From: Gracilariopsis chorda
Taxonomy: Eukaryota > Rhodophyta > Florideophyceae > Gracilariales > Gracilariaceae
DNA length: 64,000 bases
Direction of reading: 5' to 3'
NCBI GenBank assembly: GCA_003194525.1
Contig: NBIV01000177.1
Span: 1-64,000 of the forward strand
Part shown: one piece after another, positions 684 through 24,161 of the stretch
How the letters are laid out: every line of letters starts with the position of its first letter
Numbering within the stretch: position 1 is the first letter of the stretch
Program-made: the position numbers and the translations under genes
The notes under the pieces: generated by a model
The model's database searches: none
The model's input: the letters and a program-made list of their open reading frames with translations, nothing else
What the model was told of the DNA's origin: nothing

Positions 684-1345
684 CAACCCTAACCTTTCGG
701 AACGGGCTCAGCCGCACCCAGCGGTCGATTCGGTCACGAAAAACTAATCTTGGGAGTCTCCCCCACGGGAGGGTGTCTTCCAAGCCGAAGTTGGAGACGC
801 CTGAGGCGCCACCGCTTCGCTCCCCTGCCAAAATCCTTACGAGGAAACTGGCTCAAGAAGACGTGAGCTCGGACCACTTAGTGGCTCTGCGTCGTCCGTG
901 GATACGGTCCCGTAACCTCCGCATCCCGGATCGAGTTTTGGTAATGACCAAGAGGAACTATAAAGTTTATAGTGACCTCGGTCTCTCTAACCAGTTCATG
1001 GTTCGTCAGTTATCTGTCCTGGATACAGGTGCCGCTCCGAACCTGATCAATATCGGGATTATTCCACCCGCCATGCGGAAATGCATTCGCATTGGTCCAA
1101 GTCTGGATCTGGCGGACGCTAATAACAACCCGCTCCAGACTCTTGGAACAATTCCTCTGGTACTCAGACTAGGCACCTACGTGGTGAAGTTGGACTTCAT
1201 CGTATGCGATTCTCTTGCTGCACCGGTCATCCTCGGTTGTGATTTCTGTGACCGCTTCGTGGAAGCTATCCGCCCTCGCTCCAGATCTGTGGAATTGGCC
1301 AACGGTTCGACCATCCCGATTGTACGGAAGCCCTTGCGACACGCC
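545..1345 (+). pseudogene. gypsy aspartic protease region
   Basis: This frame continues from the zinc knuckle after a frame change. It carries the retropepsin motif VLDTGAAPN at about 1018-1044 and, some 70 residues on, a hydrophobic ILGCDF motif that corresponds to the second hallmark of retroviral-type proteases. The enzyme would cut the Gag-Pol polyprotein. The frame loses sense near 1345, where a different frame picks up the linker to reverse transcriptase, so the region is inactive as it stands. Confidence 0.65.
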
Positions 1346-3659
1346 TCCCGTAAACGGGGTACCTTTACCTGCTGCTCAGGAAGCGTCCAATGTGGATCGA
1401 GCATCTACAAAGATTCGTGTCGCGGAACCAGTTTCGATCCCGAAGGAATCTCAGGTGTGGGTCTCAGTAACATCCAAACACCACGGGTTGCAGGTTGTTC
1501 AACCGCTCCCCTCGCTCTACGAACAGCGCCGTCTCGCATTAGCAAATGGGATCGTATCCGTCGAGCCGGACAAACCCTTTAAGGTTCTCGTTGCTAACCT
1601 CGGAACTACCACTCAGTGGTTGGTTAAAAACCAGGTCCTGGGCAACATGCTTCCGCACCCGTTGGCTATCCTTCCTACAAAGATTCCGATCTCCGACGTT
1701 CTCGGAATACAAGACCCTAAGGAGGGGGAGGAGGTCCCGTTCGTTCCGTTGGATCCCGCCCGGGAAAGTTCAGATTCGACTGTCGAAGAAGCTCAGAAGA
1801 GCACGACTTCAGCATCGGCAGATACTGCGTTAGACCCAGAACAGGCTTTGGATAAGTTGGACCTGGATCACATTAATGAATCTCATCGTGAGAAGTTTCG
1901 TGACATGCTCAGGGACTTTACCGCCATGTGGGACGGTTCCCTGGGGACGATAGCGGTAACCGAACATCGGATTGATTTGTTGCCGGATACACGGCCTATT
2001 GCACAGCACCCATATCGGGCAGGCCCTAAAGCAAGGGGGGAAGAGAAATCTCAGGTGGAGAAGATGCTGCGAGCTGGAGTTATCGAAGCAGCACAATCCC
2101 CTTGGGCTTCTCCTGTTGTCCTTGTTCCGAAAGCCGATGGATCATGGCGTTTCTGTGTGGATTACCGCCGCCTGAATGCGGTTACTGTCAAGGACGTCTA
2201 TCCGATTCCACGAATGGACGAGTACATTGACTCCCTGGGGAGCGCAACGGTGTTCACTACCCTCGATGCCAATTCGGGATACTGGCAGGTCCCTATTAGG
2301 AAAGAAGATCGTGATAAGACCGCGTTTGTGTGCCATCAAGGACTATATCGCTTTAAGCGAATGCCGTTTGGACTAACGAATGCCCCAGCTACATTCCAAC
2401 GAGCAATCGATATCCTCTTGGCGAGGTTCAAATGGACCAGCTGTCTGGTATACTTGGACGACATTATAGTGTTCTCTAATAACTTGGACGATCACCTGTC
2501 CCATGTCCGGGAAGTCTTGACAGTGCTCCGCAACGCGGGCATCACCCTGAAGCTGGGAAAGTGTGAGTTCTGCGCCGATTCGGTAAAATATCTGGGCCAC
2601 ATCATCCGCCCCGGACAGCTTTCAATCGATGAAGCAAGAGTGAAATCACTTCGAGAGGCGAAACATCCGACTAATCAAACGGAGCTTCGATCCTTCCTAG
2701 GACTTTGCAATGTATATCGCCGATTCGTCCCGAACTTCGCCGACTTGTCAGCACCGCTTAACGCACTCCTCCGGAAAGGACAACCTACCGAACTGGACGT
2801 CTTTGACGAGGCTGAGTCGTCAGCATTCTCGTCTCTTGTCGACGCTGTAACGTCCCCGCCAGTTCTGGCCTTACCGCACCCGGACTTACCTTTCGAAGTG
2901 GATACTGACTCAAGTGCCCACCAGGTGGGTTGTGCGTTGTTTCAAGTCACGGAAGAAGGAGAAAGACATCCGATCGGATATTGGTCACGTTCGTTGAACG
3001 TTCACGAGCGCAACTACTCGGTGTCCGAGAAGGAGTGTCTTGCTGTTGTTTGGGCGTTGGCAACGCTTCGCCCATACCTTATGGGTAACCATTTCAAGGT
3101 TCACACCGATCACTCGGCTCTCCGTTGGCTACTCGAAATTCGAGAACCGTCGGGCCGCCTCATGCGTTGGCGTCTCCGACTCTCGGAATTTACATTTGAT
3201 GTCCTCTACAAGAAGGGATCCCTGAATACTCAGGCTGACGCCCTATCGCGCTTAGGAACATCAGCGGAAACCGAACCGGTCGACGATCTGGAAATACCAT
3301 GTTTCATGGCACAATCCCCGGAGGGAACGGAAGAAGACAACCCAGACGTGAATGGGGATGACATCTGTGACGATATTCTAGCTGCAAACCCTACGGATCC
3401 TCCGGATGACCAGGTTGTTCCCATATCCTCTGAGGAAATGATCCGTGAACAACAGCAGGATCCTTTCTGTGCCCAGATTCGTGCCCGTCTTAACGGAGGC
3501 GCACAGATACCCTTTGCGGTGAACGATCGAGGCTACCTAGTCAGGTTGCTGACACGGACCCCACAGATCGTTGTACCTCACACGCTGCAGCAGCGCGTCT
3601 TGCATCTATCGCATTACGCGAAGCTGGTGCACATCCCGGCGGGAGGAAACTATACCTGA
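1340..3659 (+). pseudogene. gypsy reverse transcriptase-RNase H
   Basis: This open frame holds the whole RT and RNase H of a Ty3/gypsy element. Visible motifs are the fingers region ASPVVLVPKADGSWRFCVDYR (split by eye into its usual blocks), FTTLDANSGYWQ with the first catalytic Asp, the YLDD box at 2451-2462, and an RNase H of the DTDSSAHQVGCALFQ type followed by E and a TDHSAL motif. It ends in the spacer before integrase, whose HHCC zinc domain is cut by a stop at 3657-3659; sense resumes one frame over immediately. The formal start of the open frame (1215) is a TTG out of register with the protease, so I take 1340 as the practical start. Confidence 0.85.
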
Positions 3660-9085: not shown

Positions 9086-9862
9086 CACACTTCTGAGGGA
9101 TTAACCAAAGTTGTGGGCACCATAGAGGAACTAGCTCCTCAGTGTCCCCCTCACTTCCGCTCCGAAGCGCACAAAATTGGATACCTCCGCAATGCGGTCC
9201 TGGAATCGTCATGGGCAAGGCTACCAGTAAGCAACATTGTTACCCCCAAGTACACATTCAATGGCTTCATCACTGCTCTTAGGGAAAGCCTTCAACTAGA
9301 AGAAGAGATCAGAGAGATCAGCAAGACCTCTGAAACGAACATTGTGAGTGAGGGGACGATGTATCAGCAGTATGGGCGGGATCCAAAATATGTTCGCAAA
9401 CATCCACCCCAAAGGGACTCCCGCTTCGGCCATAAGCACACCAGTGGTAGCGCACAGCCTCGCACCCAACCGCGAACCTTTGAAGAAAGTCGCCGACGCA
9501 ATGAGTGCCATAAATGCCACAGACATTGGCAACCAGGTCACCGTTGTAAGCCTGGTGCTATCCGCAACCTTGTGCGTCAAAAGATGACTAGTGGTGAGTC
9601 CGCCGTGCACATTGTGTCGGACCTTGTCTTGGCAATGGAGGGAGAGACTGACGAGGTCTCTGACAGGAATGATGGCGACGACGACCAGCACGGACCATGT
9701 TACGATGTTGAGGAGGTTCGCCTGTTCGACCAACTGACGGGTGGAGATGAACCCTTGGCCACAAGAGCCGTCGAAAAAGCCGACGAAGATTGGTTCACAA
9801 ACCATGTGGCGGCTACTATGGGTCAAGAAAGGATGCACCCAGCATCACAGTCTTTTCAGTAG
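9086..9862 (+). CDS. copia gag, N-terminally truncated
   Basis: The frame is open from the gypsy LTR junction to a stop at 9860-9862 and reads as the end of a capsid protein followed by a nucleocapsid. The Cys/His cluster CHKCHRHWQPGHRC at about 9506-9547 resembles a retroelement zinc knuckle with unusual spacing. The C-terminus is acidic. It overlaps the pol frame by about 70 bases in the -1 register, which would fit ribosomal frameshifting or a single lost base. No initiator ATG is visible because the 5' part is gone. Confidence 0.55.
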   Translation, partial: HTSEGLTKVVGTIEELAPQCPPHFRSEAHKIGYLRNAVLESSWARLPVSNIVTPKYTFNGFITALRESLQLEEEIREISKTSETNIVSEGTMYQQYGRDPKYVRKHPPQRDSRFGHKHTSGSAQPRTQPRTFEESRRRNECHKCHRHWQPGHRCKPGAIRNLVRQKMTSGESAVHIVSDLVLAMEGETDEVSDRNDGDDDQHGPCYDVEEVRLFDQLTGGDEPLATRAVEKADEDWFTNHVAATMGQERMHPASQSFQ

Positions 9863-12800
9863 GGCGACGAGAGTTAGTGCCTCAACACCGTCGCCCGTGC
9901 CGATGGGCAGCTTCGCATAGGACTGCTCTACCGAGGCGCAAACCCATGGGTGAGCCTTTGGAAGTCAATTTCACTCACATCTTTGTGACAAAACTTGCGA
10001 AAGAGCGTAACCGCTCTCGAGCAGACGGATTCTGTGTCGATATTGGAGCACCGAAATCAGTCATTGGAGTTAAGGAACTTAAGCGTGTCCTTTCGGATCA
10101 CAAGCTTAGACTGCCGAGACTTCGAAAGTTACCGTCTCACACGCGCTTCAAGTTTGCTGATGCCACGTTTGAGTCGCTTGGACAGGTAGATATTCACCTC
10201 GCTACACCTCCCAACGTTAGCCCTATCCTGGTGACGATGGACGTCGTATCAGCGGACATTCCAGCTCTGCTTGGAATGGATATCCTTGACCGCGAATCCC
10301 TTATAGCAGACACAGTGGCGAACCGTCTAACGCACAGGGCACAGGTGCACACTAATGGAGATCAAGCCACGTTCGTAGATGGCTGGTCTGTACCTCTACA
10401 CCGTTCTGCCAGTGGTCATGTGTTTGTTGATATGTGTTTCCCGACTCAAACAAACTTCACAAGGACACAGCTACACAAGCTACACAGGCAATTCTTTCAC
10501 CCGGCAGCTGATAAACTCTTCGCGTTGATTAAGAGAGCAAGGCCCGAGGAAGCAACGCCTCAGACATTGGCAGTTCTAAAAGACCTTAGCAAGAGATGCG
10601 ACCCATGCCAGAGAATTCAGAATGCCCCGAGCCGCTTTCGTGTTTCATTTGGGGCGGAAAATGTCCGCTTTAACGAAAGTGTTCTCATTGATATTATGTA
10701 TATCAATGGAAAACCCGTGCTGCATATCGTTGACGAAGGAACTCGCTTCTCGGCTGCCACCTTCCTTCCAGACGTGTCTACCAGGACCATATGGAAGAAA
10801 ATTCTCACATGCTGGATAGCCATCTATACTGGGATTCCCAATCGAATGTTAGTAGATCAAGGTAGTGCTTTTGGGCAACTATTCATCGAAATCGCAGCGA
10901 TATCTAACATTGAGGTCGATAGAACTGGTGTGGAAGCCCACTCGAGCCTTGGGCTGGGCGAACGCTATCACCATCCTCTAAGGCAGACATACCGAAAGAT
11001 CATGGTACAGAACCCTTCCACGGAGCCAGAAATAGCACTCGCGGCATCAGTGAAGGCTATGAACGATACGCTTGGGCCGGAAGGACTGGTACCATCAGCA
11101 TTGGTTTTCGGTGAGTTCCCTCCTGTGCGCACTAGATCCGAACCTCAGAGAACCAAGGCAACATTGGCAAGTCGGGCAGAGGTAGCAAACATCGCTCGAA
11201 CCGAGATGGAAAGGTGCATGGCAAAACTAAGGATCGATCGTGCCCTCAAGCACAGAGTACCACCAGCCTGCGACTCGGCGTACCAGGTTGGTGATAAAGT
11301 ACTGGTCTGGAGGGAGAAAATCGTCGATAGCCGTATTGGAGAATGGCTAGGCCCGTTCACTATCAATGCAGTAGATGAGCTGAAGAAGCTGGTATACGTC
11401 CAAGACGTCCCGATAGGAGCAGCAAAGCCGTTCAATCTAGCTCAAGTGAAACGCTACTACGAGCCAGAGATGATAGCAAACTCATTCTTCTCCAGTCTGA
11501 ACAAGTGCTTCGAACCGTTTCGATCCGTAGAGGAAGAGAAGGATGGCATCTACTTGACCGAGGTTATCGACAAGAATGACCCAAGAGCAAGCACAAAGGA
11601 GATGGACGAAGCTAAGAAAACGGAAATCAAGAATCTCTTGGACCGTGGAACCTTTAAGGTAATCCTGAAGGAAGATGTGCCTACCGATGGGAACATACTG
11701 CCTGGTCGTTTCGTCTTGTCCATCAAATCTACGGATGATGGGCGGGTGAAGTATAAGGCTCGCTTCGTAATTGGAGGACATCGGGACAAGCTGAAGCATA
11801 TGATGGTACACTCGACGACAACTCTGCAACCTTCATCAATCAGACTCCTCTTATCCCTTGCTATGATTCATGGCTTTGATATCTGGACATCCGATGTCCG
11901 ACAGGCATATTTACAAGCTGCCGAACCCATCCTTCGTGACGTTTTCATCACCAAGCCTGTTCCAGAGTTCGAACTGGACCCTTCGCAATGCCTTCAGCTG
12001 CTGAAGCCACTCTACGGTCTCTGCGAGTCGGGTGACCTATGGCATCAAACCATAGACCAACATCATCTGAAGGACTTGGGCATGACTCCACTACGATCGG
12101 ACCCTGCACTGTACATCCAAATGAAAGAAGGACTTCTGAAGGGTATATCTGGTGGTTACGTGGACGATTTGTTGAGAGCAGGCGAAGGTGAGTTCAAGAA
12201 GCTCTGCGCAAAAACCAACGAGAGGTTTGACATGGGAGAGGAGCAAGGTTTGCCTTGCAGCTTCACTGGGTTCTCTTTAGAAAGAAAACCAGATTCAACC
12301 ATTGTGCAGGAGCAACACTCGTATTTGAAGAAGCTGGAGGAACTCCCACCAGATGCAAAGTTTTCCTCATTTCGGTCTATGCGTATGAAGTTGGCCTGGC
12401 TTGCCAATACTAGACCTGATTGTCTATTTGAGATCTCACAGCTTGCGCAGGTGACCGAAGCGATCTTCAAGAATGATCAGAAGAGTGTGATACGGCAATT
12501 GAATCGGGCTGTGAAGTACGCGAAGAGCAACATACTTTCTCTCCGAGTTCCGAGATTGAACCGCGAAACACTAAGAGTCATAGGCTACTCGGACTCTTCT
12601 TTCGCAAATAATAGGGATATGTCTTCGCAGCTTGGTCACATTGTCTTCCTTGGAGACGATACGGATAATGTCGTACCGATACATTTCAAGTCTTACAAGG
12701 CTAAGCGAGTGACAAGATCCGCGATGGCGGGCGAAGTAATTGCTTTCAGCGACCTCTTCGATGTCGCAACCACGCTCGCAGCCGAGATGAGCCTTATCAT

Positions 12801-13077
12801 GAATCGAGAAATACCGGTACAGCTCTTTACGGACAGCAAATCGCTATTTGATGTCATATCAAAAGGATCCAGAACTTCCGAAAAGCGACTCATGCTGGAC
12901 ATCGCCGCAGCTAGGCAGGGATTCAAGAGCAAGGTTATATCGGACATCGGCTTCGTGCGAAGCTCACATAATGTGGCGGACGGGCTGACGAAGACAATGC
13001 ATCAAGCTGCTCTGAAGAACATCCTGAAGACTGGCACTCTTCAGATACAGCCGGAGCAATGGGTCATTAGAAACTAA
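9790..13077 (+). CDS. copia pol polyprotein (protease-integrase-RT-RNase H)
   Basis: This is an uninterrupted frame of about 1095 codons. The protease motif CVDIGAPKS lies near 10036-10062, with DIG in place of the usual DTG. The integrase shows a GAG-pre-integrase-like HX4H plus CX2C zinc half and catalytic residues D (10690), D (10855) and E (10960); the last two are 34 residues apart, as expected for D,D-35-E. RT has the copia-type block DVRQAYLQA and the YVDD box at 12157-12168, and RNase H follows with YSDSSFAN, E and FTDSKS. The formal start is a TTG, so translation probably comes by frameshift from gag. This copy looks recently active or close to it. Confidence 0.85.
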   Translation: MVHKPCGGYYGSRKDAPSITVFSVGRRELVPQHRRPCRWAASHRTALPRRKPMGEPLEVNFTHIFVTKLAKERNRSRADGFCVDIGAPKSVIGVKELKRVLSDHKLRLPRLRKLPSHTRFKFADATFESLGQVDIHLATPPNVSPILVTMDVVSADIPALLGMDILDRESLIADTVANRLTHRAQVHTNGDQATFVDGWSVPLHRSASGHVFVDMCFPTQTNFTRTQLHKLHRQFFHPAADKLFALIKRARPEEATPQTLAVLKDLSKRCDPCQRIQNAPSRFRVSFGAENVRFNESVLIDIMYINGKPVLHIVDEGTRFSAATFLPDVSTRTIWKKILTCWIAIYTGIPNRMLVDQGSAFGQLFIEIAAISNIEVDRTGVEAHSSLGLGERYHHPLRQTYRKIMVQNPSTEPEIALAASVKAMNDTLGPEGLVPSALVFGEFPPVRTRSEPQRTKATLASRAEVANIARTEMERCMAKLRIDRALKHRVPPACDSAYQVGDKVLVWREKIVDSRIGEWLGPFTINAVDELKKLVYVQDVPIGAAKPFNLAQVKRYYEPEMIANSFFSSLNKCFEPFRSVEEEKDGIYLTEVIDKNDPRASTKEMDEAKKTEIKNLLDRGTFKVILKEDVPTDGNILPGRFVLSIKSTDDGRVKYKARFVIGGHRDKLKHMMVHSTTTLQPSSIRLLLSLAMIHGFDIWTSDVRQAYLQAAEPILRDVFITKPVPEFELDPSQCLQLLKPLYGLCESGDLWHQTIDQHHLKDLGMTPLRSDPALYIQMKEGLLKGISGGYVDDLLRAGEGEFKKLCAKTNERFDMGEEQGLPCSFTGFSLERKPDSTIVQEQHSYLKKLEELPPDAKFSSFRSMRMKLAWLANTRPDCLFEISQLAQVTEAIFKNDQKSVIRQLNRAVKYAKSNILSLRVPRLNRETLRVIGYSDSSFANNRDMSSQLGHIVFLGDDTDNVVPIHFKSYKAKRVTRSAMAGEVIAFSDLFDVATTLAAEMSLIMNREIPVQLFTDSKSLFDVISKGSRTSEKRLMLDIAAARQGFKSKVISDIGFVRSSHNVADGLTKTMHQAALKNILKTGTLQIQPEQWVIRN

Positions 13078-17915: not shown

Positions 17916-18923
17916 TCACAAGTTAAGAGCGGCGAAGAAGTGTGGGAAATCATTCCGGGGAGGTGAATGGAACCAAGTGTTGGCGACCCATAGATGATGA
18001 ACAACAGTGCCGTGAAGTTGTGTAGCAGGCGTGGTACACGACTGATGTTGCACAACACTATGTACGACAGAATTGGGTGCAGCATTTGGAGGCGAGTTGT
18101 TCAGCGAGATAGGAAGATTGGGGGTGTGAAAAGGATGTTGTGAAGGAATGGATGGAAGGTTGGGATATGCTAAGCGTGGCCGCAGGTGGAAACAGTGCAG
18201 GTGTAAGGGGTCGAAAGGCAATTGTTGGGGTTGATATGGGGGGAGTGAAAACTGGTGGTGTGTGGTGGGGTGAGGTGTGACGGAGTGAAACGGGCCGTTG
18301 TGGGGGAATGCACGATCGGAAGAAGGGGAAGTGGCGAATGGATCGTGAACAAGAGGCAAGGAAAAGGTGGGTTGCGCGGGCGGGGAGTGAGAGCGAGGGG
18401 AGTGAGAGCGAGGGGATTTCGAAGGAGACTCACGAAACGCGACTCGAAAGTGATTGTCAGAAGAAGTGGAGGAAGACAGCATAGAGGGAAGACGTTGATA
18501 ATCTTCCCATCGAAGTTCCTCAACGCTCTTATGACGAAACGGCGGTAGCAAAGAGATGGAGAGAGCGCGGAGATTGGGGTTGACGTCTGTGATGGCGGAC
18601 AGCCTGTGCGGCACGCCGATGGTGCCGGTGGCGGGGGGGGGAGCCGTGGTGGGGAAGGTGCGGGAAACGGATGGCGGGGAGTTTGTGGGGCTGGGTGGCG
18701 CGTTGGATGGGGGCGGATTGGGAGGAACGGAGATGCAGAGAGCGGCGATTAGGGTGTCGAGACGCTCTGCCACGGCTAAGAGATCGGGGCGAGTGGGCGG
18801 GGGAGCTGGCGGGGGAGCTGGCGGAGGGGACGGCGGTGACGGCGGTGACGGGGCGGTGGCGCCGTTCTGCTGCCCGGGCGACGACGGCGGCGGCGGCGGC
18901 GACGCGGTGCGCGGCGACGTCAT
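17916..18923 (-). CDS. Proline-rich protein with a nucleoporin-like EELRWEDYQ motif
   Basis: From the ATG at 18921-18923 the frame encodes 335 residues. The first 45 are Pro/Ser/Ala-rich, then a short helical segment (DLLAVAERLDTLIAAL), more Pro-rich sequence, and a segment KSVEELRWEDYQRL around residue 130. The latter resembles the SFEELRxEDY motif found near the end of the FG region in Nup98/Nup116 nucleoporins. The remainder is Pro/His/Ser-rich with few FG pairs, so a real Nup98 assignment is weak. The longer open frame upstream of this ATG is created by a GCGGCCGCGAAGCGAAA-type minisatellite and is not credible coding. A divergent Pro-rich ORF at 24332 begins similarly. Confidence 0.4.
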   Translation of the reverse strand: MTSPRTASPPPPPSSPGQQNGATAPSPPSPPSPPPAPPPAPPPTRPDLLAVAERLDTLIAALCISVPPNPPPSNAPPSPTNSPPSVSRTFPTTAPPPATGTIGVPHRLSAITDVNPNLRALSISLLPPFRHKSVEELRWEDYQRLPSMLSSSTSSDNHFRVAFRESPSKSPRSHSPRSHSPPAQPTFSLPLVHDPFATSPSSDRAFPHNGPFHSVTPHPTTHHQFSLPPYQPQQLPFDPLHLHCFHLRPRLAYPNLPSIPSQHPFHTPNLPISLNNSPPNAAPNSVVHSVVQHQSCTTPATQLHGTVVHHLWVANTWFHSPPRNDFPHFFAALNL

Positions 18924-18939
18924 GAGCGGATGGAAAGCG

Positions 18940-19100
18940 GCCGCGAAGCGGAAGCGGCCGCGCGAAGCGAAAGCGGCCGCGAAGCGAAAGCGGCCGCGAA
19001 GCGAAAGCGGCCGCGAAGCGAAAGCGGGCGCGAAGTGGCGAAGCGAAAGTGGTCGCGGAGCGAAAGCGGCGCAAAGCGAAAGCGGCGCGACGCGAAAGGC
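18940..19100. repeat. GC-rich minisatellite, about 18-bp unit
   Basis: Variants of the unit GCGGCCGCGAAGCGAAA are repeated roughly nine times, cleanest at 18955-19025 and decaying to the right. It lies just upstream of the Pro-rich ORF start at 18923 and keeps frames open on both strands. Confidence 0.75.
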
Positions 19101-19227
19101 GCTTCGTGCGGAACAGCAGGCTGCGCATGCAAGAAAGAGCTGCATGCCGAGAGCGGATCACGGCATTTAAGATTGTCGGGAGCAACTTGGCGCACGTGCT
19201 GCGCGACGGCGGCTTACACGCTGACAT

Positions 19228-19319
19228 GTTGCTGGATTCAGCGGTAGCGGGCGAGTGGCGCGCGAAATGTAAAGTGTCTGTTGTATCAATGTGTCGGTAT
19301 GTCTTACCAAGTTTATTGC
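19228..19319 (+). repeat. Left arm of 92-bp palindrome
   Basis: Its reverse complement matches 23942-24033 with about 87 of 92 identities. The arms meet at the TTAA into which the piggyBac-like element and the MITE are inserted. Confidence 0.85.
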
Positions 19320-19323
19320 TTAA

Positions 19324-22300
19324 CCCCGTGCTCACAGAGTGAACATTTTAGTTCACCCAAAAGTGGGGTGAGTTTTGGAGAATTTTGGCGAATTCTCGGT
19401 TGCAGAGAGAACGTCTCTCGACGACGGGTGATGTTCATTCTGTGTGTCTCCCAGATATTCTCTATCCCTCTCCGACGGTAAGCCCTATTCCTTAACGATC
19501 TCGAGAGAGCATTTGCTTCCGTACTCGAAGACTGACCAGTTATGTCTCATGAACCAACTCCCATTCTACCTTGCACAGACGCTCTTCGCAATGCAGACAC
19601 CGGCAACCGAACACTTTCAGTCGACAACTACACTGCGGAGATTGACAAAATTTCTGTGGACGCCCATAGCCGTTCTGGAGAGATGCCTGCAACGTCGCCG
19701 CAGCGTTCACAAGGTACCTCTGGCCAGGTAGCCGACAAGGTTACGGGGATGCAAACAGCGACTGTTGCCAATGAATCTCCAAAAGGTCAACACCAACACG
19801 CACTAATACGTTGTAATCGGTCGGCCTCAGAGAACACTAACCCCGAAAACGTGAACGGCAACTACACCAGTGAGTCTGACAAGAAATACAGCGCCACAGA
19901 AAGTAGTTCTGAACAAGATGATAACTTTGAATCAAATTTGTTTACTCCTTCAGATATGGTTATCGATGACAATGAAGTACAAGATTTGCACACCAATAAT
20001 GCACCACAGCACATACCCCATGCGCTGGAGGCCACAAAAATTGCTACAGAAGACTACTGGGCCGGCTTGTTTGTGGAACCAAGTGAGCTTGTGAATGGTG
20101 CTCTAGAACTTGAAGGGAGTGCTACAGATGAGGGTTCATCTACGCCGATGTTAACAGCTGCACAGCGCAGTGATGCTCAACGTGTTGGCGATTTAAGGGG
20201 TTGGAAGTATGCGGACGCCTTTGGTTCGGTCGAACTTTCTCTTGATGATGCTGATGGTCTTTTGGGTACTCGTTTTGTGCAGGAAGCTAATAATGTTGTC
20301 GAGAAGGTCAAACGAGAGGTACGAAGAGCTCGAAATAAGACAGATGCAATTGATGAAATGACGATTTCGCGATTGGATGTGCTCAACATTTTCTTGCCTG
20401 TAAGCGTACTCGAGAAACTCAAATGGCATGTAAACGGTGCTCTCTCAGAGAGACGTATCGAGCAAGCAACAACAGAAGAGCTCCGTGGATGTATAGTAGC
20501 ACATGTGTTAGCTGCATCGTACGGGGTCAGTGTTTCTACCATGACTTCAAGGGATCAGAAAGACTTTTACTTTCAGACTGGTATACAAGGCAAACGCTAC
20601 AACGAAATATGGTCGGCAATTAGCGGTACGAAGGAACTACGTCAGTCCTACGAGGAGCATGGAGCCGGATACTCAAACAAGCCAGTACAAGGAAATCAAC
20701 TGATTACGGAAATGGAGCAAGACCTGGCTGATGTAAACAGAAATTTGGTGTACGTACCACGACACACGATATTCAGCCTTGATGACGATCATCAGCGTTT
20801 ACGGTCTCGTGCTGTAACGCAGCTCACTAACCTTTCCCACATAAACAACCCTGCTAAAGCACTTGGGCCTGTGAATAACGCTCTTTGTTCGGCATTGACT
20901 TCGGCATTCATTGCAAGTCACTACTCAAGACCAGGGGAGAAAATGATTGATGTCTGGGAGCGGCTTGTGCAACTAGTTCAGGGCGCAGCAACACGAGGCT
21001 CAATTCAGGCCATGGTGGATGCAATATTTGCGGCGGATCGTGGATATAACGGAGCCGAACCCATTAACTTTATCAACGACAGACTTGGTGCGACAGGAAT
21101 CGGTACGCACAAGCGAAGTCTTGATTACCCGTTTGTTTTTGGGGAGGGTCCGGTGCGGAAAAAGCACAAGGGCATGTTGGTACAGGAAAAAGGGTGCAGA
21201 GCGGTGTACAGTGCAACGCGATCAGCAAAGGAGAGGTCTGGGAGAGAGGTGCAGGCCATGGTCTACCGTGAGAGCTTCTCAGGCCGAGTTGCCTCAGTGT
21301 ATCATAACAATCAGAAGTTGTTCGGAGCAGATCGGTTCACATTGATCCCAAAGACAGAGTTCACTGGACGTTGCCTAACGGAGGAAGACATTCGGGACTT
21401 GCACTTCGTGTATTATGTTGGACAGGATAATGAAGGCCATAGTCGTGGGCCAGCTGCTCGCTCCACTCGGACATGCCCCTTATATGTTTTCTTTGCCCTG
21501 AACAGAGTAGAGCAGTATACCATACTACAATCAGAGGATCCCGGATGGTTTCTTGCGCGGGCATTTCGGTTCACATCTAGGACGACTCATGGTTTTCTTA
21601 CAGCTTTTTGTACAGACTTTGAAGAGAGTCTTAGGTGTGCCGCAGAAGGATTGAAAGGAAAGGTTATTATGCAGGGCGCAACAGCGTTACCGACAGAGAG
21701 AGACGCTGCCGAACAGATACTACGAAGTAAGTGGAAAGAGGTGATCAATGTTTTTGGAATGCGGGAAACGAATATTAATAGGGATGAGAATGGCGAAAAT
21801 GAAGCAGTTCAGCAAGTAATGGAGGCAACAGCGGACACTTTTCGTCTCCTACGGAAGGAAGAATTGCTCACAATTCTTCGGAGAGTAGGGCAGCGCCAAC
21901 CCTCATCGTTTCTTAAGCAGCAATTAATTGACAAAGTTCTAGACCTACAGAAAGCGGTAGCAGATGGATCACTCACATTATCGGTTCCAGCACAAGCGGC
22001 GCCAGAACTGAGTGAGACGCAGCAATGGGCGTTTCGTACGGAAACGTTTCGCAAACGGTTGTTTGAGGCGTCGCTTGGAGCATGGTTTATGAAGCCATTG
22101 ACTGTTACATCTGGAATGAAAGAAGGATCTGAGAATGAAAGCAAAGTATTGAAGCTGCTCCCAAATTTCTTCGCACAGAACCTTGTGTCACGAGGCGAAG
22201 CATTCCAGGCTGACTATAATATGCGTGAGAACTACAACAGGAGCATCACTATCGAATATATTAGGACTGTGGGTTTATTGGGAGGAAGAGATGTCCTGCT

Positions 22301-23767
22301 TTTGGCTGGTAGTCCGGATGGAATTGTAGGATACCGGGATGGCAGTCAAGCAAACGCTGTGGCTGTTGAGATAAAGACAATGACCTCACTGAGAACTATT
22401 CAGGCCGCGAAGAGCGTGTGTGAAAGCTACTGTGAAATTGTGCATTTGTCAGGGATTGGCTACTCTGAGTATGCTACAAGACTATTTCATAAACTCGTGC
22501 CAACCTCAGCCTATCGATTGCAATGCATGCATCACGCAGCGGTGCTTGGGAATGAGAAGGTCATATTTGTTGTTGCCAAAGGCTGCAACACTGGCGTGGG
22601 CGGTATAATTTACGCCGTACTACTCGAATTCTCTCGAAGCATAGTGGCGAACTACAAATTCTGTTTGTCTGGCATACGAAGCTTGGCATTTTCATGGGTT
22701 GGGCAGGAAGCAAAACACATTCCGGATTCTTACGATGATCTTTTGCAGAAAACGTATGCTACTGATTTGTTCTCTTTCGTTTCATTTTATAACATAAGCA
22801 AGGCCTACAAAGATCTTTGCTCGAGGCAAGGGCCGCTTGTTCCTGCTCGAATGATACGACCGACGTGTCTGGTTTACTGGAATCATTTGAAAGGCGGTGT
22901 TGATGAATTTAGTCGAAACATGAAGAACTTGTCTTATACGAATTCATCCGAGAACCCAATCGTTAGCGTTATTGGAAGATTGCTCTGTGCTCAGGTTAAT
23001 AATGCTGGAATTGTATTCAGATTGCTTGCCGCTCGTAACAGAAACTTGCTACCCACAACTATAGACCAATGCAGCATACAAAAGAAGAGCTACAGAAGAT
23101 TGCGACACAATGTTACCAAGTGCATGTCATTTTCTTCTTTTGCAAAGCAATTGGCCAAAGAGTTTGCATTGGAATACAAACGTTTGTCTGTCCAGCAAAC
23201 ATCGTCAGCTTTAGCGTCATCTAACCTTTCGGAAAATGTTGTGATGAAACCGATGTGCACAAGAAATGTCGTACAAAATTATAACAGAGATAATGATGCT
23301 AACAGAAGGTTAGCGAATTCTTCGTTGCATGTAGTAGTAAATGCGAAAGCTACATACTGCTCGCTCTGCTCATTTAGCTATTCTGTTAAACGAGGCAGCA
23401 AAGTGTTTACGAAAAAGGGCGGGTCAAAAGTTGTGCAATGGTGTGGGTTGTGTCGACAACCTGTGTGTTCTTCGTGCTGGGATTCTTGGCATTCCAAACG
23501 TCTTTTGGTTAGGGCGACAATTTCTACAGATGAGCTGCAAGAACTTAAAGAAAAGGCGGAAGCATGGTATCTGAAGCAGACTTCAACGTAAAGACCTGTT
23601 CTTTAGTTTTGTGCATTGAGAGACATGTACGGTGAATCTCTTTCGAGCTGGGTGAGGTTCTACAGCGATCTAGAGAACTTCACTGTTGGGCAATTGGTTC
23701 TCCAAAAATCTCCATAAATCACCGCGTTCTTAGAGTGAACGAAAATGTTCACTTAACCAGCACGGGG
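19324..23767 (+). mobile_element. piggyBac-like TTAA transposon with nuclease-fused transposase
   Basis: The element is 4444 bp and flanked by TTAA at 19320-19323 and 23768-23771. Both ends start CCCCGTGCT, matching the TTAA-CCC rule of piggyBac. The imperfect terminal inverted repeats extend about 100 bp. Each contains an internal palindrome, GTGAACATTTTAGTTCAC on the left and GTGAACATTTTCGTTCAC on the right. One large ORF fills the interior. The ORF is intact and the ends are well matched, so the copy may be complete. Confidence 0.85.
19542..23591 (+). CDS. piggyBac-type DDE transposase with inserted YqaJ-like nuclease
   Basis: This 1349-aa protein would cut and paste its element at TTAA. 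The N-terminal 200 residues are Ser/Asn-rich and disordered. The catalytic core starts with FSLDDDHQRLRSR (D414, like the piggyBac DE...GR motif) and ADRGYNGAEPINF ... GTHKR ... YPF (D499, like DNWFTS ... GTVR). A SAP-like helix pair lies near 769-802. A PD-(D/E)XK nuclease of YqaJ type follows at about 840-1020: GSENE, SPDGIV (D926), VEIKT (E943, K945) and a Gln-containing YRLQCMHHAAV. After that comes VYWNHLKGGVDEFSRNM (D1121), equivalent to the piggyBac YNQTKGGVD motif. The end is a zinc domain, CX2C (1273, 1276), CX2C (1301, 1304), CX2C (1309, 1312) and H1317, like the piggyBac Cys-rich domain. Kolobok elements also use TTAA, but the KGGVD and CRD motifs favour piggyBac. Confidence 0.8.
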   Translation: MSHEPTPILPCTDALRNADTGNRTLSVDNYTAEIDKISVDAHSRSGEMPATSPQRSQGTSGQVADKVTGMQTATVANESPKGQHQHALIRCNRSASENTNPENVNGNYTSESDKKYSATESSSEQDDNFESNLFTPSDMVIDDNEVQDLHTNNAPQHIPHALEATKIATEDYWAGLFVEPSELVNGALELEGSATDEGSSTPMLTAAQRSDAQRVGDLRGWKYADAFGSVELSLDDADGLLGTRFVQEANNVVEKVKREVRRARNKTDAIDEMTISRLDVLNIFLPVSVLEKLKWHVNGALSERRIEQATTEELRGCIVAHVLAASYGVSVSTMTSRDQKDFYFQTGIQGKRYNEIWSAISGTKELRQSYEEHGAGYSNKPVQGNQLITEMEQDLADVNRNLVYVPRHTIFSLDDDHQRLRSRAVTQLTNLSHINNPAKALGPVNNALCSALTSAFIASHYSRPGEKMIDVWERLVQLVQGAATRGSIQAMVDAIFAADRGYNGAEPINFINDRLGATGIGTHKRSLDYPFVFGEGPVRKKHKGMLVQEKGCRAVYSATRSAKERSGREVQAMVYRESFSGRVASVYHNNQKLFGADRFTLIPKTEFTGRCLTEEDIRDLHFVYYVGQDNEGHSRGPAARSTRTCPLYVFFALNRVEQYTILQSEDPGWFLARAFRFTSRTTHGFLTAFCTDFEESLRCAAEGLKGKVIMQGATALPTERDAAEQILRSKWKEVINVFGMRETNINRDENGENEAVQQVMEATADTFRLLRKEELLTILRRVGQRQPSSFLKQQLIDKVLDLQKAVADGSLTLSVPAQAAPELSETQQWAFRTETFRKRLFEASLGAWFMKPLTVTSGMKEGSENESKVLKLLPNFFAQNLVSRGEAFQADYNMRENYNRSITIEYIRTVGLLGGRDVLLLAGSPDGIVGYRDGSQANAVAVEIKTMTSLRTIQAAKSVCESYCEIVHLSGIGYSEYATRLFHKLVPTSAYRLQCMHHAAVLGNEKVIFVVAKGCNTGVGGIIYAVLLEFSRSIVANYKFCLSGIRSLAFSWVGQEAKHIPDSYDDLLQKTYATDLFSFVSFYNISKAYKDLCSRQGPLVPARMIRPTCLVYWNHLKGGVDEFSRNMKNLSYTNSSENPIVSVIGRLLCAQVNNAGIVFRLLAARNRNLLPTTIDQCSIQKKSYRRLRHNVTKCMSFSSFAKQLAKEFALEYKRLSVQQTSSALASSNLSENVVMKPMCTRNVVQNYNRDNDANRRLANSSLHVVVNAKATYCSLCSFSYSVKRGSKVFTKKGGSKVVQWCGLCRQPVCSSCWDSWHSKRLLVRATISTDELQELKEKAEAWYLKQTST

Positions 23768-23771
23768 TTAA

Positions 23772-23937
23772 GGAAGGAGAGACTGCTTGCCTCTGTCACT
23801 ACAGTTTGCACCGACACGCAAATACGTGCACGTGAGCTCCGAATAATCGGATGCATAATCGCTACTGTAGAATCCGACCCTTCCGGACCAGCGGATACCT
23901 ACCGGATACTATATAGAGGCAAGCAGTCTCTCCTTCC
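23772..23937. mobile_element. 166-bp TTAA-flanked MITE
   Basis: Perfect 23-bp terminal inverted repeats beginning GGAAGGAGAGACTGCTTGCC lie at both ends, and TTAA sits on each side (23768-23771 and 23938-23941). It shares one TTAA with the larger transposon, so the two elements stand side by side at one target. The core, 23794-23920, recurs inverted at 24035-24161. Confidence 0.85.
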
Positions 23938-23941
23938 TTAA

Positions 23942-24033
23942 GCAATAAACTTAAGAAGAAATACCGACACACTGATACAACAGACACTTTACATTTCGCG
24001 CGCCACTCGCCCGCTACCGCTGAATCCAGCAAC
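23942..24033 (-). repeat. Right arm of 92-bp palindrome
   Basis: Inverted match to 19228-19319. Before the transposon insertions the locus would have read as a palindrome centred on GCTTAAGC. Confidence 0.85.
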
Positions 24034-24034
24034 A

Positions 24035-24161
24035 GCCTCTATATAGTATCCGGTAGGTATCCGCTGGTCCGGAAGGGTCGGATTCTACAGTAGCGATTAT
24101 GCATCCGATTATTCGGAGCTCACGTGCACGTATTTGGGTGTCGGTGCAAACTGTAGTGACA
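24035..24161 (-). repeat. Inverted copy of the MITE core, without its termini
   Basis: These 127 bases match 23794-23920 on the opposite strand with a single mismatch. The GGAAGG terminal sequence is absent on both sides. The copy interrupts the right palindrome arm after CCAGCAAC. Confidence 0.85.

Follow-up and report, generated by a model that had tools for sequence, protein, structure and literature searches.

Can the catalytic domain of a transposase hold a second, complete nuclease? The question is raised by a 4444 bp transposable element (19324–23767, forward strand; 5'-CCCCGTGC...GCACGGGG-3') in a stretch of 64,000 nucleotides from the red alga Gracilariopsis chorda (contig NBIV01000177.1, positions 1–64,000; hereafter the window). 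An initial annotation, made from the letters of the DNA, had described its long open reading frame (ORF) as a piggyBac-type transposase with a complete YqaJ-like nuclease between its second and third catalytic aspartates (D2 and D3). We consider it very probable that the element, which lies in a red algal nuclear genome, encodes a cut-and-paste transposase of the piggyBac lineage whose RNase H-like domain is split by a complete nuclease of the lambda exonuclease/YqaJ kind. The split falls where ordinary piggyBac has a 61-residue insertion domain, and in this family (family 1) a SAP-like helical stretch in turn interrupts the nuclease. Good support for this anatomy comes from the ends, the target-site duplication, the empty site, the domain order, the conservation of and purifying selection on both active sites, and a second family.

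Domain order and catalytic residues

The ORF (19542–23591, forward strand) runs uninterrupted for 1349 residues, and its translation (P0001) confirmed that every motif named in the initial annotation is present in a single frame and in order: FSLDDDH with D414, ADRGYN with D499, GTHKR at 521, SPDG at 924, VEIK at 942, YRLQC at 991, KGGVD ending in D1121, and Cys pairs between residues 1273 and 1312. D499 and D1121 are 622 residues apart, compared with 101 between the corresponding residues of piggyBac, in agreement with the distances first given (about 620 and about 100).

We used hhalign to compare the family profile with piggyBac segment by segment, because the undivided region 205–1349 aligned end-to-end with its N-terminal half misplaced owing to the insertion. 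D414 (codon 20781–20783) fell onto piggyBac D268 and D499 (codon 21036–21038) onto D346. A second segment, aligned on its own, put D1121 (codon 22902–22904) on D447; the alignment of homologs supports all three assignments. Both segments scored higher than the reversed profile and than every one of 100 column shuffles. The triad thus stands in the motif contexts of piggyBac D268, D346/GTVRxNKRxIP and GGVD, and GTHKRSLDYP, which begins at 521, 22 residues past D2, resembles the GTVRxNKRxIP that lies 23 past D2 in piggyBac (PMC2533014). The initial annotation would have been overturned if D1121 belonged to the nuclease and another third aspartate lay near residue 600. No such residue was found there, E577 lying in the strand-rich part after GTHKR; KGGVD corresponds to the piggyBac D447 motif (PMC2533014), and E665 and D666 lie in the N-terminal motif of the nuclease. 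The first AlphaFold2 model gave a fold match to piggyBac (6x67), and further piggyBac-type features are the 4 bp duplication with central TA, the 5'-CC repeats, the Cys-rich C terminus and the subterminal palindrome. TTAA itself was dropped as proof of piggyBac, since Kolobok elements share it.

All parts of the protein are encoded on the forward strand. The N-terminal half of the helical dimerization/DNA-binding domain (approximately residues 246–405; 20277–20756), to which 6x67 aligned from model residue 42, precedes the first part of the RNase H-like domain, placed by hhalign at approximately residues 406–530 (20757–21131). Residues 531–655 (21132–21506) probably represent the strand-rich remainder of the piggyBac insertion domain, judging from the likeness of GTHKRSLDYP, the model and hhalign. 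The nuclease does lie between D2 and D3, as first claimed, but it begins near residue 656 rather than near 840: lambda exonuclease from the Protein Data Bank (PDB) aligns to residues 658–1088 in both AlphaFold2 models, and the nearest folds are exonucleases of phages and large viruses. Its N-terminal part (approximately residues 656–735; 21507–21746), assigned from the fold range and a motif, contains W669 and R673, which on the same grounds would correspond to W24 and R28 of lambda exonuclease. The SAP-like stretch (approximately residues 736–849; 21747–22088) is present too, but inside the nuclease rather than ahead of it; its motif reaches E 1.6e-6 with Pfam SAP in homolog P0008, and it is under weaker constraint. 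The main nuclease part (residues 850–1090; 22089–22811) holds E861/E866, SPDG (D926), VEIK (E943, K945) and Q994, and is supported by these motifs, by the folds and by a Pfam YqaJ match in homolog P0002 (E 2.1e-5). The nuclease has the full catalytic set (E, D, E-x-K and the Gln motif), parts of which are altered in some degraded copies. Beyond it, hhalign places the terminal RNase H helix with KGGVD and the second half of the helical domain (approximately residues 1095–1230; 22824–23231), and alignments show a C-terminal Cys-rich domain (residues 1260–1349; 23319–23588; B-box E 4.8e-6 in homolog P0008). A CxxH (C995–H998) falls within the Gln motif of the nuclease, and its C is V in 2 of the 8 full-length sequences.

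Homologs, copies and a second family

The same domain order was sought elsewhere, as the initial annotation had proposed, and was found in homologs from several sources, including the EukProt transcript P0002; one homolog is attributed by name to the red alga Agarophyton chilense, which, with the genes that neighbor the element, indicates a red algal host. The homologs are 36–58% identical, which places the observation far from chance. A third protein search, with P0008 as query, added one fragment (P0020), and no relative was found in viral contigs (both families scanned) or in contigs of prokaryote genomes (family 1 scanned). Among eight full-length sequences, the transposase residues D414 and D1121 are kept in all and D499 in seven; in the nuclease E943, K945 and Q994 are kept in all and D926 in seven. 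Homolog P0006 carries D416 to N, the transposase change D499 to Y and the nuclease change D926 to E, as in a decaying copy.

The G. chorda assembly (91.3 Mb, 1081 contigs) contains 46 matches to P0001, of which several are fragments of a single copy; some are 92–97% identical, a group stands at about 77–80%, and the remainder are mostly at 36–56%. Only the window copy is stop-free over its whole length, and most others carry stops. In the group at 45% (11 loci, counting those that cover each site), D414 is kept in 10/10, D499 in 9/10 and D1121 in 11/11, and the nuclease sites are likewise largely retained (W669 11/11, R673 10/11, E861 9/11, E866 10/11, D926 11/11, E943 8/11, K945 9/11, Q994 11/11). 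The four loci of the 77–80% group keep D414 in 2/3, D499 in 3/4, D1121 in 4/4, D926 in 3/4, E943 and K945 in 4/4 and Q994 in 3/4. The ratio of nonsynonymous to synonymous change (dN/dS), a plain Nei-Gojobori estimate from pairs that include dead copies, was 0.29 in the 77–80% group for residues 205–640, 0.30 for the nuclease, 0.56 for the SAP-like stretch, 0.25 for residues 1095–1230 and 0.30 for the Cys-rich domain. In the 92–97% group, where changes are few, the corresponding values were 0.95, 0.38, 0.84, 0.44 and 0.46. On these sequence comparisons, both active sites are conserved and under purifying selection.

A search of the same genome with the YqaJ profile, which also matched in 2 of 14 control genomes, found eight places, none of them a place of family 1. 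Seven were full-profile matches, and six of these are 99.5–99.7% identical over about 3.45 kb to the copy on contig C19. They define a second piggyBac-like family with an internal YqaJ nuclease (L055, L023, L056; C19:189979–193827), in seven copies that are 98–100% alike in protein. The C19 frame of 1115 codons has the order LDDD, DRGY, YqaJ, KGGVD, Cys-rich; Pfam YqaJ matches at 468–648 (profile 1–146 of 150, E 2.4e-7), and the end of DDE_Tnp_1_7 (303–349 of 349) follows the nuclease at 747–792, below the cut-off (E 0.037). The first and second catalytic aspartates are 79 residues apart, and the second and third 504. The protein has 55 matches in its own genome, seven of them full or nearly full at 98–100%, and two or more of the near-identical copies are stop-free; family 2 looks, from its sequences, to have been recently active. 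The alignment of the two families covers 900 columns (E 1.6e-21, with a score of 185.9 compared with at most 26.0 in 40 shuffles), with the first two aspartates, GMKEG/MRGTANE, SPDG, VEIK, the Gln and KGGVD in register. The simplest reading of the alignment is that the nested order arose once.

Ordinary piggyBac copies are also present. The genome has 119 matches to DDE_Tnp_1_7, some of them pieces, and by eye none coincides with the listed places of family 1 or family 2. The best of these matches fit the whole profile into about 1.15 kb, which leaves no room for such an insertion. Twelve ordinary loci (L011–L022) are 97.7–99.9% mutually identical within groups, and a simple search for ends and duplications in these 12 copies resolved none.

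Ends, empty site and target sites

Both ends of the window element begin CCCCGTGCT when read inwards, giving CCCC/GGGG termini. Terminal inverted repeats occupy 19324–19356 (forward strand) and 23735–23767 (reverse strand), and bp 16–33 of each hold a palindrome, GTGAAC-N6-GTTCAC on the left (19339–19356) and with identical arms on the right (23735–23752). The palindromic repeat at bp 17–33 of the left end of Trichoplusia ni piggyBac is bound by its Cys-rich domain (PMC7351741). TTAA flanks the element on both sides (19320–19323 and 23768–23771), as seen by inspection of the ends and by comparison with an empty site. The latter is an inverted paralogous copy of the flanks (23915–24034, reverse strand), which matches the joined flanks plus one TTAA over 120 ungapped nucleotides without the element, so that the unoccupied site, a single clean TTAA, is visible within the window. 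The element entered its site with a 4 bp duplication.

TTAA sites and CCCC termini had been taken as tying the protein to its element. Both are present at the window element, but TTAA is not fixed in the family. Eight family 1 elements have both ends, and seven pairs have exact 4 bp duplications: TTAA (the window element on C177, and C42), TTAG (C181), TTAC (C12), ATAA (C43), ATAT (C403) and ATAC (C55). The pair on C55, with ends about 28 kb apart, is the least certain; the ends on C42 are 13 kb apart, presumably through later insertions. The duplication on C36 is off by one base (TTAT/GTAT), and C307 has a left end only (TTAT). Three of 11 more distant relatives, at 45% identity, gave GTAA, CTAG and ATAT, taken as the outermost duplications, by a matched-duplication filter, which is weaker evidence than the seven exact pairs, as a mismatched-locus control also scored 16/16, related loci sharing ends; the other eight loci gave no usable outer end pair. 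Family 2 elements have CCCTAG ends, with GGTTCCATATATGGAACC or a near form close to each end, and ATAT on both sides in 7/7. A pattern requiring ATAT found seven end pairs (including an 863 bp derivative on C21) and one single end, and none in a reversed control. TTAA is therefore the minority among exact pairs (2/7 in family 1, 0/7 in family 2), and the target rule in the relatives is NTAN. In the piggyBac superfamily element Pokey of Daphnia, about 10% of sites are TTAT, ATAA or CTAA, and its authors regard the middle TA alone as essential (PMC3849761).

Competing readings, known systems and surroundings

Several results weigh against the piggyBac assignment and the nested nuclease. No Pfam profile reaches its cut-off in P0001, so that the profile check proposed at the outset succeeded only by way of relatives, profile alignment and folds. 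DDE_Tnp_1_7 is weak even in the family (3/11 members at E ≤ 1, best 9.7e-5), and homologs P0003 and P0008 likewise stay below its cut-off. Adding 10 of the 12 ordinary piggyBac copies to the target profile (L011 and L013, with longest frames below 450 residues, were excluded) did not raise the N-terminal score (34.6); the C-terminal score did rise (42.0), with no shuffles behind it. Against this enlarged profile, the whole of family 2 aligned correctly only around KGGVD, its N-terminal half being misplaced. In the first AlphaFold2 model, D499 and D1121 lie in stretches with a predicted local distance difference test score (pLDDT) below 50. The second (residues 240–1230; pLDDT 66.1, predicted template modeling score 0.47) is worse, its RNase H core being unresolved, and piggyBac is absent among the matches listed for it, which does not exclude piggyBac. 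With these two models, the meeting of D414, D499 and D1121 in one RNase H fold stands as a prediction. Aligned directly with lambda exonuclease by hhalign, the family 1 nuclease gives a weak match (E 0.029) in which SPDG alone is in register. Between families 1 and 2 the N-terminal nuclease motifs do not line up, and the transposase part of the 97% group shows no constraint (dN/dS 0.95), as in decaying copies. With the first model, Foldseek returned nothing from PDB or BFVD at E ≤ 0.001, and an 11-member profile run against PDB sequences had no relevant hit. The missing Pfam signal in P0001 would speak for an artifact, whether a chance nested insertion or a D1121 that belongs to the nuclease with the true third residue near 600. 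We give this hardly any credence: KGGVD aligns to piggyBac D447, and the order recurs in homologs from several sources, the P0002 transcript among them, in many copies in the genome and in the second family, the recurrence in two families already contradicting an artifact. Only slightly less implausible is a Kolobok-type element outside the piggyBac lineage. KolobokE combines a TTAA duplication with a lambda exonuclease-like nuclease (PMC9587614), but its ends are 5'-RR and those here 5'-CC, the third residue here is the D of KGGVD, the fold match and profile alignment point to piggyBac, and the nuclease is internal rather than downstream.

What might the nuclease do within a transposase of the piggyBac lineage? 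The insertion domain of piggyBac (372–433) splits the RNase H fold following strand 5 and borders the channel for target DNA (PMC7351741). Because the insertion domain lines that channel, the nuclease lobe would be expected to face flanking or target DNA, while the DDD site would excise and insert as in piggyBac, via hairpin excision, and the Cys-rich domain would sit on the subterminal palindrome. Lambda-type exonucleases degrade the 5' strands of 5'-phosphorylated duplex ends. Acting at the transpososome, such a nuclease could resect a DNA end, chiefly that of the broken donor site, in the 5'-to-3' direction; the resulting 3' tails would steer repair to a homologous template, so that the element would be copied back. 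We tentatively propose this role, donor-site resection that favors templated repair, as the likeliest of those considered, though at less than even odds. The fuller picture is somewhat more doubtful: a two-nuclease machine in which the DDD site excises and the lambda exonuclease-like site resects the donor, biasing every jump toward homology-directed repair and gain of copies, and which is of single origin and still present in red algae, in at least two families with a relaxed NTAN target. Recurrence in two distantly related families and in relatives suggests that the added nuclease probably contributes to transposition.

The activity of the nuclease is itself a prediction from sequence and fold, no observation bears on resection, and the empty site is one clean TTAA; these points count against a resecting nuclease, as do two related copies of the 45% group, L050 (C306) and L052 (C283), in which VNIRT replaces VEIKT. 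A site with E and K both changed has thus been propagated. This argues against catalysis being strictly required in cis; it may be unnecessary or be provided in trans. These copies led us to lower slightly the weight given to resection and to raise that of a noncatalytic role, in which the fold would be retained chiefly for structure or DNA binding. We still regard such a role as unlikely: E943 is changed in 3/11 and K945 in 2/11 of the 45% group and P0006 has D926E, but among full-length homologs E943 and K945 are kept in 8/8 and D926 in 7/8. Moreover, P0006 has also lost D499, and C306 and C283 both contain stops, so that all three look like dead copies multiplied in trans or by duplication. 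Nor does it seem probable that the nuclease trims transposition intermediates (a hairpin, a flap or the strand ends of the element) instead of the donor site. The location of the nuclease within the catalytic domain and the equal purifying selection would suit any reaction step, but degradation of 5' strands at duplex ends, the usual lambda-type action, fits trimming poorly, and exact duplications in 7/8 family 1 end pairs argue against heavy trimming of element ends. The DDD site of piggyBac, in addition, makes and resolves the hairpin itself (PMC7351741). The nearest folds to the nuclease, in phages and large viruses, could suggest a nuclease that degrades competing extrachromosomal DNA or rival elements; this is very unlikely, as fusion inside a transposase ties the nuclease to transposition and the element has no other ORF of at least 150 residues.

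The elements share with piggyBac (T. ni 6x67/6x68; piggyBat 9c0f; the ordinary DDE_Tnp_1_7 copies of the same genome) the DDD motif contexts, 5'-CC ends, a 4 bp duplication with central TA, a subterminal palindrome and a C-terminal Cys-rich domain. They differ in the distance between D2 and D3 (101 in piggyBac, 622 in family 1, 504 in family 2), in the nuclease in the insertion region and in their targets, piggyBac typically using TTAA. KolobokE also pairs a DDD/E transposase and TTAA duplication with a PD-(D/E)XK lambda exonuclease-like nuclease, but belongs to the Kolobok superfamily, has 5'-RR/YY-3' ends (5'-CC...GG-3' here) and carries the nuclease downstream of the transposase domain (PMC9587614). 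ISL2EU, of the PHIS superfamily, is likewise a DNA transposon with a YqaJ nuclease; there the nuclease, described as of unknown function, occupies a separate ORF, the duplication is AT and the transposase has a THAP domain (PMC4482050), whereas here there are one ORF and a 4 bp duplication. The lambda exonuclease/YqaJ nucleases (PDB 1avq, 3sm4, 3syy) have the fold and catalytic motifs in common with the element nuclease but stand alone, lambda exonuclease as a toroid (title of 1avq); here the nuclease is embedded in a transposase and, in family 1, carries a SAP-like insert. Other transposases also have insertion domains at this position in the RNase H fold (PMC7351741), and the initial annotation held that no nuclease of the exonuclease/recombinase class was known as such an insertion. 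A literature search that covered few subscription papers and neither Repbase nor Dfam found no report of one, and a Repbase entry is possible; by title and opening of the abstract, papers pairing piggyBac with YqaJ concern other matters. The claim stands to that extent, although lambda exonuclease-like nucleases had been recruited before, by KolobokE and ISL2EU. The domain arrangement is real and conserved, with no description found, in a transposon of a known kind. Together with KolobokE and ISL2EU, it suggests recruitment of lambda exonuclease-like nucleases by DNA transposons on several occasions, which calls for explanation. If the nuclease is active, the protein would unite excision with end processing in a natural fusion and would allow a direct test of whether transposons steer the repair of their own breaks; the near-identical copies of the second family offer material for assays.

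The surroundings of the window element are themselves repetitive. The flanks (19227–19323 and 23768–24161) form overlapping near-perfect inverted repeats, of 97 nucleotides (95%) across the element, 127 nucleotides (99%; 23794–23920 and 24035–24161) and 27 nucleotides (100%; 23768–23794 and 23915–23941), which may stem from an inverted duplication by template switching. Directly to the left of the element, at 18910–19102, are repeats of about 17 bp (GCGGCCGCGAAGCGAAA-like). Further upstream, at 1215–3659 and 9790–13077, are two kinds of reverse transcriptase gene, RVT_1 with RNase H and RVT_2 with an integrase core, and near the element are a ferredoxin-dependent bilin reductase and further genes in long uninterrupted frames.
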